Translations under genes and position numbers: made by a program
In this document: one piece after another, positions 16,978-23,099 of the stretch
Position numbering within the stretch: position 1 is the first letter of the stretch
How the letters are laid out: each line of letters begins with the position of its first letter
The notes under the pieces: generated by a model
Seen by the model: only the letters and a program-made list of their open reading frames with translations
Told to the model about the DNA's origin: nothing
The model's database searches: none
Source of the DNA: a virus
DNA length: 40,210 bases
Reading direction: 5' to 3' (one strand)
Virus record (IMG/VR): IMGVR_UViG_3300022924_000024
Span: 1 to 40,210 of that record

Positions 16978-17148
16978 ATGAGTAAAGAAAAAGATATTGA
17001 AGCGAATTTTCCCGATGAAGGTACTACTTTTGTTAGTCAACCCGCCCCTGATGGCGAGCCTGTTGACTCTGAAGCTGTTATCGTTCACGACACCGACGAA
17101 CAAGGTAACGTAATTGGCTGGCACAAAGAAGCCGGAGAAACTGAATAA
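16978..17148 (+). CDS. Small acidic protein (56 aa)
   Basis: ATG 16978 follows ATAGGAGAAATAAAA, one of the best ribosome-binding sites of the region. The product (MSKEKDIEANFPDEGTTF, later VIVHDTDEQGNVIGWHKEAG) is acidic and probably small and flexible. It ends with TAATG at the start of the next tail gene. Function unknown; it is likely a fibre accessory. Confidence 0.7.
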   Translation: MSKEKDIEANFPDEGTTFVSQPAPDGEPVDSEAVIVHDTDEQGNVIGWHKEAGETE

Positions 17149-17654
17149 TGGCATCAACACAATCATGGACTGAATATAATGGCGCATCTGCTGCTACGCC
17201 GACTGCATCACGTGCAGAAGCTAACTGGAAGCGTATCGATGACTCGACGACTCCTTACAGCTCAAGTCCTATCAACAGCACAAATAACGAAAATAGCATG
17301 ACAAAATATCAGGCTCTTGTGTTCGCTGGAACTTGGTCTAGCCTCTCAGTGTTGACATATAAGATCGATAACAACGCTCCTGCAACCGGTTTATCTATTG
17401 TTGGTTCGGTTGTCACCTCTGGTACAACACCATCAACAACTGCCTCTGGTGACTCAGCAATGAGTACAACTGGACTTGCGGCTAACTTCAACAACTCAAC
17501 TACTCCTTATGGTGCAGGTACTTCAAGCTCAACCGCTTCAGGGACAATGTATGCTAACGCACTTCGCACACAACTTCAGACAACTAGCTCATATGTTGGT
17601 GGTCCGGGTGATATTACTACTCGTACTATTACAGCAACCTGGACAGAATCTTAA
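17148..17654 (+). CDS. Ser/Thr-rich tail-associated protein (168 aa)
   Basis: Opens MASTQSWTEYNGASAATPT and continues as a Ser/Thr/Gly-rich beta protein (VLTYKIDNNAPATGLSIVGSV; DITTRTITATWTES). Low charge and many small polar residues fit a surface-exposed virion protein. It is translationally coupled to the preceding microgene. Specific function not recognised. Confidence 0.55.
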   Translation: MASTQSWTEYNGASAATPTASRAEANWKRIDDSTTPYSSSPINSTNNENSMTKYQALVFAGTWSSLSVLTYKIDNNAPATGLSIVGSVVTSGTTPSTTASGDSAMSTTGLAANFNNSTTPYGAGTSSSTASGTMYANALRTQLQTTSSYVGGPGDITTRTITATWTES

Positions 17655-17688: not shown

Positions 17689-18051
17689 ATGACGCTTATC
17701 CCTCAAGATACATCCGTACAGGCAGAATATGCCGACGGATATATCCACGACGAAACAACCTTGAACGACGTATCTCCTTACGTCGAGTTCAAGAATATCT
17801 TCGATGATATCCTGCATAAACGACCAGAGGCCGAACATGGACCGATGGTACGCTTTACCGCGTTCTATAAGAATGCTAAATACGACATCGACTGGACGAC
17901 ACTGCCTGATAACGCACGGCCTATTCGTTTCCGAGATGGCGCTAGTTATTTAAGTGGTGGTGAAGAATGGTCTGAGTGGACAGGTATGCGGTTTGGTTAT
18001 CAGTTTAACGATGAGACGGGGAAGAACATCCAAGAAGTCCAGGAGCTATAG
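17689..18051 (+). CDS. Hypothetical tail-region protein (120 aa)
   Basis: A compact, acidic, aromatic-rich protein (YVEFKNIFDDILHKRPE; MVRFTAFYKNAKYDIDWTTLP; EEWSEWTGMRFGYQF). Unlike its neighbours it is not Ser/Thr-rich, and it may be an assembly chaperone rather than a fibre part. It has AAGGAG upstream. No family recognised. Confidence 0.6.
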   Translation: MTLIPQDTSVQAEYADGYIHDETTLNDVSPYVEFKNIFDDILHKRPEAEHGPMVRFTAFYKNAKYDIDWTTLPDNARPIRFRDGASYLSGGEEWSEWTGMRFGYQFNDETGKNIQEVQEL

Positions 18052-18054
18052 CTT

Positions 18055-19338
18055 GTGGCGAACAGATATCTAGTAGCATCTGGAAATTACACCAGTACCT
18101 CTGTCTGGTCTGCAACGTCGGGTGGCGCATCGGGGGCGTCAGTACCTGGTTCATTTGACGACGTATTTATAGAAAATAATTTCACTCTTACGGTAGACTC
18201 AAACTCGAACGCTCAGAGTGTAACTCATAGTTATGGAACTTTGATTGTAAGTGGCAACCGTACATTAGGTATTTCTAGAGCATATACATTTAGCGGAACT
18301 TCTTCAAAGATTGTTAGCATGCACGCTAGCACGGCAAGTTATTTTAACTTTCCGTCAGTGTCTGGATTCCAGCGTGGATTTACGTACGCTGTTGGGGCTA
18401 ACAATATACTAATATCCCCTGGTGTTGGTTCGATAACTGGCTCCGCATCATCAACTTCTCCTATAGTTATTGAAAGCCCTGTTTCAGTTGACTGGCCAGC
18501 TATCAACCTCACCTTCTTTGGTAGCAATGGAACAATTGATATTAAAGGGGCGAACAGTACCTTTACTAACTTTAGTGTTGCATCTGCATCTGGCCAGTTC
18601 ACTTCAAATTTGACGTTTGAAGCAGGTAAAACGTACACTATGCTCGGGACATTCTCTATGTCCGGTGTTACTGGCGTACCATTAATAGTAGACACAACCT
18701 CTTCCGGTAGCCAAGTTACGATATCTAAGTCGTCTGGCTCCGGCACGGCTGACTATGTCACTATGCGGGACAATAGTGCAACAGGCGGGGCCACCTTTAC
18801 TGCTACGAACTCTACTAATACTAGCGGGAACAGTGGCTGGATATTCCCTATACTAAGAACTAAGACGCAAACAGCGACTGCTAGAATTCAGAAGGGTCTT
18901 GCCAAAACCCAGACTGCTACGGCAAGGATTGCAACTCCAACCGAATACTCGAGAGGAAGTTATTCATCAATACCTTCAAACGCTGCATTGCTAACCACTA
19001 ATTATTCTTCGTCAGAGATAACAGATGTGAGTACTGTTGATGGGATCTTTGTAGATTTAATGATTGACGACGTATATGGCATACACCAGTTCAACCATAA
19101 AGGCACTAACAATACTAATCAAATTCACCCAACATGGACCGGCCGAATCGCGAAACCAGCAGCTAGCGTAAACGTAAAAATGGAGATTTATAACCGCACG
19201 AGTGGATTATGGGAGCTTCTCGACACTAATAACAGTGCAGCAGCGAATGCTACTATTACACTACAAGGACATGTGACCACCAGTCTATCTGATTATTACG
19301 ACGCCTTATATTATGTTGCAGTTAGGGTATATCAATAA
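18055..19338 (+). CDS. Beta-helix-like tail protein with KTQTATARI motifs
   Basis: GTG 18055 begins a 427-residue protein. The N-terminal 260 residues have the short repetitive strands of a right-handed beta-helix or similar surface protein (FIENNFTLTVDSNSNAQSV; YGTLIVSGNRTLG; STFTNFSVASASGQF). Two copies of KTQTATARI follow near residues 268-290, the unit massively repeated in the next gene. The C-terminal domain (about 300-427) looks like a beta-sandwich (VNVKMEIYNRTSGLWELL). It is probably a fibre or spike. A short ribosome-binding site (AGGAG) lies within the preceding gene. Confidence 0.6.
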   Translation: MANRYLVASGNYTSTSVWSATSGGASGASVPGSFDDVFIENNFTLTVDSNSNAQSVTHSYGTLIVSGNRTLGISRAYTFSGTSSKIVSMHASTASYFNFPSVSGFQRGFTYAVGANNILISPGVGSITGSASSTSPIVIESPVSVDWPAINLTFFGSNGTIDIKGANSTFTNFSVASASGQFTSNLTFEAGKTYTMLGTFSMSGVTGVPLIVDTTSSGSQVTISKSSGSGTADYVTMRDNSATGGATFTATNSTNTSGNSGWIFPILRTKTQTATARIQKGLAKTQTATARIATPTEYSRGSYSSIPSNAALLTTNYSSSEITDVSTVDGIFVDLMIDDVYGIHQFNHKGTNNTNQIHPTWTGRIAKPAASVNVKMEIYNRTSGLWELLDTNNSAAANATITLQGHVTTSLSDYYDALYYVAVRVYQ

Positions 19339-20945
19339 TGCCTACTTTTGGACCAACTGGCGATAATGGCAATACTAATGCCGTAACGGCTGACCGCATA
19401 TTCTTACTGTCGGCCGCTCCCGCGAGCGGTGGTACTTTAGACAGCTTCACGGCTCGAGCTTGGCTCGCTGGTGCAGGCTCAAAAGGCATGCGAGCTGTCA
19501 TCTATTCAGATTCTAGTGGTGTCCCCGGCACTCTATTAGCCGTATCTGATGATATAGCCGTGACGAATACATCTGAAGCCGCTCAAAACATGGTCTTCTC
19601 TGGCGCTAATAGGATTGTGTTAGTCGCTAGTACCACCTACTGGATCGGTATTCACTTCGAGGCTGGTTCTCCTAATATGACCCTCTCAAGGGCTAATACA
19701 GCTAACCTCACAAGGCTCAGTAGTACCTCGATATCTTTTGCTTCTACTCCAAGCACGGTCACGACAACTACTGCTGCAGGCCCAGTCGACATGTATGCAA
19801 CGTATGTTACTTCATTCACGGGTACAAAAACCCAGACGGCAACTGGTAGAATCCAAAACACTCGTACTAAAACTCAATCAGCTATCGCTAGAGTCGTTGC
19901 TCGATTAGGGACTGATTATTACAATCCAGGCTTCGCCAACATATATACTAAAACTCAATCAGCTGTCGCGAGGGTTAGTAAAAATCTCACAAAAACTCAA
20001 AGTTCTATTGCGAGAATCAGTAAGACACTAACCAAAACTCAGCCCGCTGTTGCGAGATTAGCAAACATACTCACGAAGACCCAAACGGCAACTGCACGCA
20101 TAAGTGGAGGTGTTCAATACACTAAAACACAACCAGCCATTGCTAGGATCTCGCAAAATTATACAAAAACCCAGACAGCTACTGCAAGGATTCAAAGAAT
20201 ACTCACGAAGACGCAACCAGCAGTGGCGCGAATTGCATACATTTATATCAAGACCCAGACTGCTACGGCGAGAATATCTCAGAACTATTCAAAGACCCAA
20301 ACAGCTATTGCTCGAATTCAACGTACACTTACCAAGACACAACCGGCTACAGCAAGAATCCAGATTGTTAGTACCAAAACTCAACCTGCGACAGCCCGTA
20401 TTAGTAAAATATTCACAAAAACACAGCCTACTACTGCCCGTATTTCTCAAACTTTCACAAAGACGCAGTCAGCAACGGCGCGCATCCAACGTAGCCTCAC
20501 CCGTACACAGTCTGCCACTGCTAGGATCGTAGCGCAACCATTCAGACTACAGACAGTAGTAGCGAGAATCAGTAATACCAGGACTCGTACCCAAACAGCC
20601 GTAGCAAGAATTGGCATCGGCGGATTAAAGACGCAAACAGCTATTGCTCGCATTATCGTGAGCCGAACTCGTACTCAGACCGCTACAGCTCGTCTTCAAA
20701 AAAGTGTGGAAAAGACGCAAACAGCTATTGCTCGCATCGCTATGCGTAGCCAAGTTAGTCAACCTGCTGTCGCTCGTATTGCAAACGTTTACCTCGGTGG
20801 TTTATGGTGGTGGAACGGCGTGAAATGGGTATCGAAACCGGTCAAAGTTTGGAATGGTACAACTTGGGTCGTTAAGCCTTTGAAGCGATGGAATGGTACA
20901 ACTTGGGTGACACTATATGGAAGCACGATTATTGGGTCAATATAG
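19338..20945 (+). CDS. KTQxAxARI-repeat tail fibre protein
   Basis: The 535-residue protein has three parts. Residues about 1-160 form a beta-sandwich resembling a carbohydrate-binding domain (MRAVIYSDSSGVPGTLLAVS; TTYWIGIHFEAG). Residues 163-481 hold 22 copies of KTQ-x-A-x-ARI, mostly with a 14-residue spacing. Residues about 489-525 hold three WNG-x2-WV units, a type of terminal repeat familiar from phage tail proteins. It lacks membrane or signal segments. The repeat region is probably an elongated shaft or decoy surface; the terminal units may bind glycan. Coupled to the preceding gene by TAATG. Confidence 0.65.
   Translation: MPTFGPTGDNGNTNAVTADRIFLLSAAPASGGTLDSFTARAWLAGAGSKGMRAVIYSDSSGVPGTLLAVSDDIAVTNTSEAAQNMVFSGANRIVLVASTTYWIGIHFEAGSPNMTLSRANTANLTRLSSTSISFASTPSTVTTTTAAGPVDMYATYVTSFTGTKTQTATGRIQNTRTKTQSAIARVVARLGTDYYNPGFANIYTKTQSAVARVSKNLTKTQSSIARISKTLTKTQPAVARLANILTKTQTATARISGGVQYTKTQPAIARISQNYTKTQTATARIQRILTKTQPAVARIAYIYIKTQTATARISQNYSKTQTAIARIQRTLTKTQPATARIQIVSTKTQPATARISKIFTKTQPTTARISQTFTKTQSATARIQRSLTRTQSATARIVAQPFRLQTVVARISNTRTRTQTAVARIGIGGLKTQTAIARIIVSRTRTQTATARLQKSVEKTQTAIARIAMRSQVSQPAVARIANVYLGGLWWWNGVKWVSKPVKVWNGTTWVVKPLKRWNGTTWVTLYGSTIIGSI
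19824..20780 (+). repeat. 22 imperfect 42-bp repeats encoding KTQxAxARI
   Basis: The protein core is strongly kept (Lys-Thr-Gln, Ala, Ala-Arg-Ile) while codons differ freely between copies (AAA/AAG, ACT/ACC/ACA/ACG, CAA/CAG), so selection acts on the protein rather than DNA identity. The last six copies have irregular spacing. Confidence 0.9.
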
Positions 20946-21863: not shown

Positions 21864-23099
21864 ATGTTAGAACACATCATCGTTGCACTCGTCGGAGTTG
21901 GAATACTCGGCGCGGCATACTTAGTCGATCTTATCATCGGCGTTACTCGGGTCATTTTCACTGAATCAATCAAGTTTAGTTGGAAGAAAGTCCTTCAAGA
22001 CTTTATCCGAGCATTGCTCATCGGAACATCAGTTGTTGCCTACATCGCCGTATTCGACGCGCTTGCGTGGTATGGCACGCTTACTGGTGCGAACCTTGAA
22101 GTTCTCAACCAGTTCGGTATGGGTGGTCTTATCGCCGCTGTTATTGGTGGATCAGCTTGGTATCTCACTAACGCCGGTAAGAACCTGTTCAATTTCCTCA
22201 ACAGTAAAGGTGTAAAAGTCCAAATCGACTCAACAAAAGCTGACTATGCAGGCATCACAAAGCCTATTCTCGAATTCGTTGAGAATATTAATAGTACACC
22301 AAAAGTTGCTGTTGAAGCTCATAAAGCCTTTGAGACTGAAGGTGGAATTGGCGCTGCTTACTCTGTTCCTATCGGTAGTTACGACGAGTTCCGAAATGCT
22401 GTAAATGGTAACGCTTACGACCTTGACGGCGCTTACGGACCTCAGTGTTGGGACGGCGCAGCCCTCCTTTGGCAGCAAATTGGCCGCTCACTTTCAACCG
22501 GTGGTACTGGTATCGCAGCTGGTTGTTGGAACGTCGAGTCAGCTCGCAATTCAAACGCCGGTGGCGACTTTGATCTGATCTGGAACTTGAACGACGTGAA
22601 GCGTGGTGACGTAGTTGTTCTTGGTGCTAACGGCGCTAACCACATCGCCTTCGCCGACGAGAACTACAACGGTAGTGGTCGCCTCAGCCTTCTTGGACAA
22701 AATCAAGGTAATGGTGCTGGTATCAACGGTAAACCGTTCAACATCATCTCTGTTGGTATGAGTGGATTCTCTGGTGCATTCCGCTTCAAACGTTGGAATC
22801 AAGCGCCGACTCCTACACCTGAGCCGACTCCAGAACCAACACCTGAAACTCCAACTGTTCCAAACAACCCTGAACCAGGACGCGCCATAGCTGTCGGTGA
22901 TACTGTTATCGCCAGTGGTCGTGGCGCCTCAAGCAGCTATGGCGACGGTCCATTTACAGCTGACTTCTCTGATACCGCTATGCGAGTAATCGGGATAAAC
23001 AACGGCTATTACGCGTTGAACCAGTATAACGCCGGTGAGCCAGGCAACGTGTCTGACACAACGGGCTGGTGGTCAAAGGACCAAGTTCGATCCGTTTAG
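21864..23099 (+). CDS. CHAP endolysin fused to a holin-like membrane domain
   Basis: 411 residues behind a strong TAGGAGG. Residues 1-112 hold three likely membrane helices (about 4-30, 47-69, 84-100) instead of a cleavable signal. Residues about 170-311 form a CHAP amidase/peptidase domain: Cys195 in QCWDGA, His260 in NHIAFA, Asn280 in LLGQNQ are the expected catalytic residues. A Pro/Thr/Glu hinge (about 314-338) leads to a C-terminal SH3-like wall-binding domain (about 340-411, ending GWWSKDQVRSV). It cuts peptidoglycan at the end of infection. The membrane domain suggests that enzyme and holin functions are joined or that the enzyme is membrane-anchored. Confidence 0.85.
   Translation: MLEHIIVALVGVGILGAAYLVDLIIGVTRVIFTESIKFSWKKVLQDFIRALLIGTSVVAYIAVFDALAWYGTLTGANLEVLNQFGMGGLIAAVIGGSAWYLTNAGKNLFNFLNSKGVKVQIDSTKADYAGITKPILEFVENINSTPKVAVEAHKAFETEGGIGAAYSVPIGSYDEFRNAVNGNAYDLDGAYGPQCWDGAALLWQQIGRSLSTGGTGIAAGCWNVESARNSNAGGDFDLIWNLNDVKRGDVVVLGANGANHIAFADENYNGSGRLSLLGQNQGNGAGINGKPFNIISVGMSGFSGAFRFKRWNQAPTPTPEPTPEPTPETPTVPNNPEPGRAIAVGDTVIASGRGASSSYGDGPFTADFSDTAMRVIGINNGYYALNQYNAGEPGNVSDTTGWWSKDQVRSV

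Follow-up and report, generated by a model that had tools for sequence, protein, structure and literature searches.

The adenovirus-type triple beta-spiral is a fibrous viral shaft composed of short, 15-residue repeats. In the antireceptors of Streptococcus thermophilus phages, collagen-like repeats lie between domains, as stated in the passage of PMC5601072 that cites Duplessis and Moineau (2001), and domain mosaicism of phage receptor-binding proteins is treated by Smug et al. (2023; PMC10684548). The grass antifreeze beta-roll LpAFP has 14–15 residues per turn (PMC5744647). The locus described here lies in a window of 40,210 nucleotides (the whole stretch of viral DNA that was analysed) and encodes a protein carrying an array of 14-residue units. 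Like the S. thermophilus antireceptors, it has repeats separating the distinct, variable domains of what would be a host-recognition protein; it differs in that its unit has 14 residues, lacks Gly-X-Y triplets and bears no sequence relation to theirs, in that its phages are uncultivated, and in its linkage to two further genes, here called A and B. Compared with the mosaicism described by Smug et al., a single unclassified repeat family here provides the seam that stays constant, and a three-gene cassette goes with it. The principle of repeats separating variable domains is already known; the repeat family and the cassette are, as far as searched, new. The reading favoured here, to which we assign a probability of about 0.65, is that the array gene encodes a modular virion fibre (a receptor-binding protein or adhesin) in which a basic repeat shaft spaces swappable adhesin domains.

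Table 1. Features of the window and array genes of two near-identical related phages (loci in other IMG/VR contigs are given as L numbers)
Feature	Sequence	Coordinates	Strand	Remarks
Gene A	window	17148..17654	+	168 aa; conserved cassette partner, confident beta-sandwich model
Gene B	window	17689..18051	+	120 aa; conserved cassette partner
427-aa protein	window	18055..19338	+	269-aa domain, two KTQTATARI units (18862, 18904), 130-aa domain
Array gene	window	19338..20945	+	open ORF, 535 aa: N-terminal domain, 22 units (profile), C-terminal WNGxxW region
N-terminal domain	window	19338..19826	+	about 160 aa; no family match
22 units of 14 residues	window	19827..20795	+	profile of unit; array is residues 164-486
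C-terminal tail	window	20796..20945	+	WNGxxW motifs
Endolysin	window	21864..23099	+	context, downstream of cassette
Array protein gene	L080	6902-9502		near-identical to L082 phage
Array protein gene	L082	6889-10731		near-identical to L080 phage

The array gene is flanked by its cassette partners on one side and the endolysin on the other (Table 1). Its N-terminal domain has no relatives other than its counterpart in a sister strain and, weakly similar, part of the N-terminal region of L007, and the homologous position in other relatives is occupied by unrelated, swapped domains. The C-terminal tail has relatives in the C-terminus of L008 and in short segments of hypothetical proteins from Rhodobacter phages. 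The two units in the upstream 427-aa protein act as an interdomain linker; a comparable short protein of 184 aa in L008 also has two units. Where the structural genes begin, positions 1087-1321 of the window hold three tRNA genes side by side (Pro TGG, Asn GTT, Gln TTG).

A strict two-unit DNA pattern had 10 matches in the window and none in 100 dinucleotide-preserving shuffles, one of the ten lying outside the array gene, in the upstream 427-aa ORF. A profile of the unit counted exactly the 22 copies reported by the initial annotation, with the consensus KTQ[STP]A[VIT]ARIx4T. Its remark that the last copies are irregularly spaced was mistaken, since the spacings run 14, 27, 14, 14, 14, 16 and then 14 to the end; the irregular copies are thus units 2 and 6, and two late units have altered letters (RLQTVVARI and VSQPAVARI). 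At the DNA level, TRF detected one stretch of 2.2 copies alone, so that the repeat is essentially visible as protein only. The annotation's further point, that codons differ while the peptide is under selection, is borne out by comparison between the window units, in which the core KTQ-A-ARI has pN 0.147 and pS 0.845 (ratio 0.17), positions 11-13 have a ratio of about 0.8 (0.82), and synonymous sites are near saturation. Recent tandem duplication was rejected as the origin of the array because the similarity of units is independent of their distance within it; together with the low core ratio, this points to old units under purifying selection and not to recent expansion. The sister phage (L002/L009), 95.9% identical to the window in DNA, likewise has 22 units, with an array pN/pS of 0.12 between the two; no change of repeat number was therefore found between these strains, and differing copy numbers are confined to more distantly related phages and to the pair L080 and L082, in which domains have been inserted.

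Among 156 strict units from 10 phages, chosen with a pattern that itself fixes K/R1, T2 and Q3, the consensus is K1 T2 Q3 [STP]4 A5 [VIT]6 [AS]7 R8 I9 [AQST]10 x11 x12 x13 T14, and 354 units picked by profile keep T2 in 85%, Q3 in 90%, R8 in 93% and I9 in 80%. Exceptions in length are of +1, +2 or +3 residues (+13 in the window) and are located at positions 10-13. R8 is lost in seven of nine units of length 16, as against 13 of 237 regular units (Fisher p 2.6e-7). Across many loci the arginine of these 16-residue units is usually replaced by N, H, A or S (7/9). Five arrays have a diverged unit, x-T-[QI]-x-G-K-[SAVI]-R-I, with glycine at position 5 in 94%. Comparison of neighbouring units by mutual information yielded no more than weak signals. 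The array is strongly basic: residues 163-486 of the window protein carry a net charge of +53, the mean over 437 units is +1.92 per unit, and D and E make up 0.6% of unit residues.

In about 30 array proteins the arrays lie between or beside globular domains, the layout being a domain, the array and a short tail, and further domains are inserted between units in seven loci (L011, L055, L075, L079, L080, L082 and L095). The exchange of these domains is clearest in L080 and L082, whose DNA is 98.1% identical across the 6.9 kb that lead up to the array gene and 98.8% identical across the 3.1 kb that follow it. Within the gene, the whole stretch between the start codon and the first units has been replaced, leaving two N-terminal domains with no relation to each other. 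Between its units L082 also carries a Gly_rich_2 domain (PF21722, E 1.9e-15) and a second domain of about 170 aa, and L080 has neither at that place. The converse is seen in L079 and L003, where N-terminal domains 97.7% identical are flanked on either side by DNA of about 55% identity; the shared block begins a little way past the start codon and ends at the first unit, at 87-100% identity per 60 bases and mostly 95-100%. Replacement and insertion of domains beside near-identical flanks mark the array as both the constant frame and the edge of exchange, and it is in the N-terminal and inserted domains, rather than in the repeats, that the protein is variable and adhesin-like.

These features are those of a receptor-binding fibre as judged from sequence, in which a variable, exchanged and apparently adhesin-like domain stands beside a conserved stalk. 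In the mechanism proposed, the 14-residue units would form a basic spacer shaft bearing adhesin-like domains, usually one N-terminal domain, sometimes more between the units, and a short C-terminal tail. The repeat array is constant and selected and the domains are interchangeable; the break points of exchange lie at the start codon on one side and within or beside the first units on the other, and genes A and B travel along with the array gene. The protein would be located on the virion and bind the host surface. Its earlier label of tail protein found no support in the sequence, and profile searches returned no match that names it a tail fibre; as the array gene of siphovirus-like relatives precedes the head-completion and tail genes, it might instead be a head fibre.

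The repeats themselves may have a glycan-binding role, an option that the initial annotation had raised. The charge of the units suggests a different arrangement, in which they are themselves the binding surface, a polycation that attaches through avidity to anionic polymers of the host surface, while the terminal domains play an accessory part. The high charge per unit occurs beside N-terminal parts that are mostly neutral or negative, and few letters of the unit are better conserved than K1 and R8. Set against this, the loss of R8 from most 16-residue units suggests that this residue has a structural role, some arrays have a lower charge (+0.83 per unit in L017 and +1.14 in L047), and it is the domains that vary between close relatives. 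We regard this arrangement as unlikely.

The initial annotation could name no fold for the unit, and the searches bear out that it lacks a named repeat family, with none in Pfam, PHROG, NCBIfam or PDB accounting for it. Every match of the array in Pfam and NCBIfam searches fell under the curated cut-off; the best PHROG, phrog_25538, reached E 9.9e-6 over the array with no stretch passing singly and has no known function, and none of the PHROG matches pointed convincingly to a function; the array protein as a single sequence matched no PDB chain; and a literature search for the unit peptide found none. Glycine makes up 2.1% of the unit, which is not organized in the Gly-X-Y triplets of collagen-like repeats. 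Resemblance to the grass antifreeze beta-roll (LbR_Ice_bind, PF21300) extends to coil length and to matches of two diverged arrays at E 0.0014 and 0.0032, with 18-19 bits against a cut-off of 30; the window array protein has no PF21300 match, the NxVxG motif is lacking, and AlphaFold2 gave no roll. The triple beta-spiral is similar in repeat length, in a Pro/Gly/Ser position and in a tolerant loop position, but gave no profile match.

When the array profile was searched against PDB with hmmsearch, it matched coronavirus HR1 at E 1.6e-7 overall but about 1 per domain, together with designed helical repeats and a trimeric autotransporter stalk (E 0.011). Such matches could indicate a continuous trimeric alpha-helical coiled coil of two heptads per unit, and the 3-4 spacing of T2, V/I/T6, I9 and L13 is in keeping with one; the matches to coiled-coil trimers nevertheless follow from 14 being two heptads. 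Proline stands at position 4 in 18% of units, threonine is frequent (21%), the heptad is interrupted in positions 10-13 by insertions of 1, 2, 3 or 13 residues, AlphaFold2 assigned no helix, and G5 occupies most diverged units, all of which makes a coiled coil very improbable.

AlphaFold2, applied to ten units as a single chain with a gapless alignment of 43 rows, returned pLDDT 29 and pTM 0.11 with no secondary structure, although a single-chain prediction cannot test a trimer, so that this value neither proves disorder nor excludes a fibre. Disorder had been named beforehand as the outcome that would count against an ordered repeat, and by charge-hydropathy the array lies marginally past the boundary towards disorder (R 0.164, boundary 0.127). 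Both values are what an intrinsically disordered entropic linker would give. Such a linker is nonetheless hard to reconcile with the exact 14-residue register, with T2, Q3, A5, R8 and I9 kept over hundreds of units while synonymous sites are near-saturated, or with isoleucine and valine at about 17% of residues, and we consider it an improbable account of the array. Of the solenoid shaft first proposed, the shaft role is upheld by the placement of arrays between and beside globular domains in about 30 relatives and by the swaps at their edge, whereas the solenoid fold is not, given the pLDDT of 29. Our preferred guess for the shaft fold is a beta-stranded fibre, perhaps trimeric.

In the window and most relatives the cassette has the order A, B and array gene, the array being last. 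Between the window and the main group, gene A is 67-90% and gene B 50-65% identical; in the matching comparison the MCP is 30% identical and was found only in two overlapping loci of one contig, and nothing was detected in the relatives for the portal, the scaffold, the 1346-aa protein or the endolysin. A search with gene A gave 48 IMG/VR loci (L060-L107) from uncultivated phages, 33-90% identical, a count of loci and not of independent lineages since several IMG/VR contigs are near-duplicates. Where at least 5 kb lay downstream, 22 of 30 gene A loci had the array downstream on the same strand and none had it upstream or antisense; five more (L086, L094, L096, L100 and L105) have the diverged 14-residue array, bringing the total to 27 of 30 and leaving L070, L087 and L097 without one. 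Conversely, nearly all array contigs that hold the upstream side have gene A; L058 has a relative of B and lacks A. The window cassette follows tail-type genes and precedes lysis, the siphovirus-like relatives have it ahead of the head-completion and tail genes, and it appears, from gene order and partial profile hits, to be common to podovirus-like and siphovirus-like phages. With a diverged array, it is also present in L086 (208,933 bases) and L096 (193,745 bases), possibly jumbo phages.

Neither A nor B matched Pfam, annotated phages or, convincingly, PDB. The gene B family has the sequence EAEYADGFILDETELND...NARPIRFR, and no relatives are known outside these phages. Gene A was modelled by AlphaFold2 as a beta-sandwich (pLDDT 90), whose best Foldseek matches in PDB are weak ones to chaperone-usher pilin subunits (E 0.01, TM about 0.4); its match to Gp173 of Bacillus phage G (TM 0.58, E 0.046) is also weak. 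Pilin subunits of this type accept a donor strand, which raises the idea that the units are docking peptides, each completing or binding one gene A beta-sandwich in a donor-strand-like manner, so that the array would be decorated with A. No other gene of the cassette is as tightly linked or as conserved as A, the array alone has no fold in AlphaFold2 and lies slightly on the disordered side, and diverged A goes with diverged units. The Foldseek matches are weak, however, strands already occupy both ends of the A model, and joint divergence is also expected from joint inheritance; we find docking distinctly unlikely. Were it true, the A-B-array cassette, passed between phages of unrelated morphology, would let them assemble a decorated fibre resembling a pilus. 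On the modular-fibre reading that we prefer, A and B are probably attachment or assembly partners of the array protein.

Pattern and protein searches found the KTQ array in about 20 further IMG/VR contigs, the patterns missing diverged units. In 84,980 GTDB species genomes, the two-unit pattern had no match and the one-unit pattern had 27 isolated matches, none with adjacent units; a cellular origin of the array was rejected on these two scans, neither of which yielded any array. With Patescibacteria considered as a possible host, gene A was found in none of 380 of their genomes in a search run without a positive control. Among 50,697 annotated phage records, the C-terminal WNGxxW stretch was the sole part of the array protein with matches, and genes A and B and the repeat units had none. 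On present sequence data, the repeat family appears to be unclassified and confined to uncultivated phages.

The array and its partners thus define an unclassified, viral-only repeat family and a three-gene cassette across phages whose virion genes are otherwise unrelated. They also offer a natural example, at near-base resolution between near-identical genomes, of adhesin domains exchanged at a repeat seam. Gene A provides a marker for finding more such phages and, in time, their hosts.
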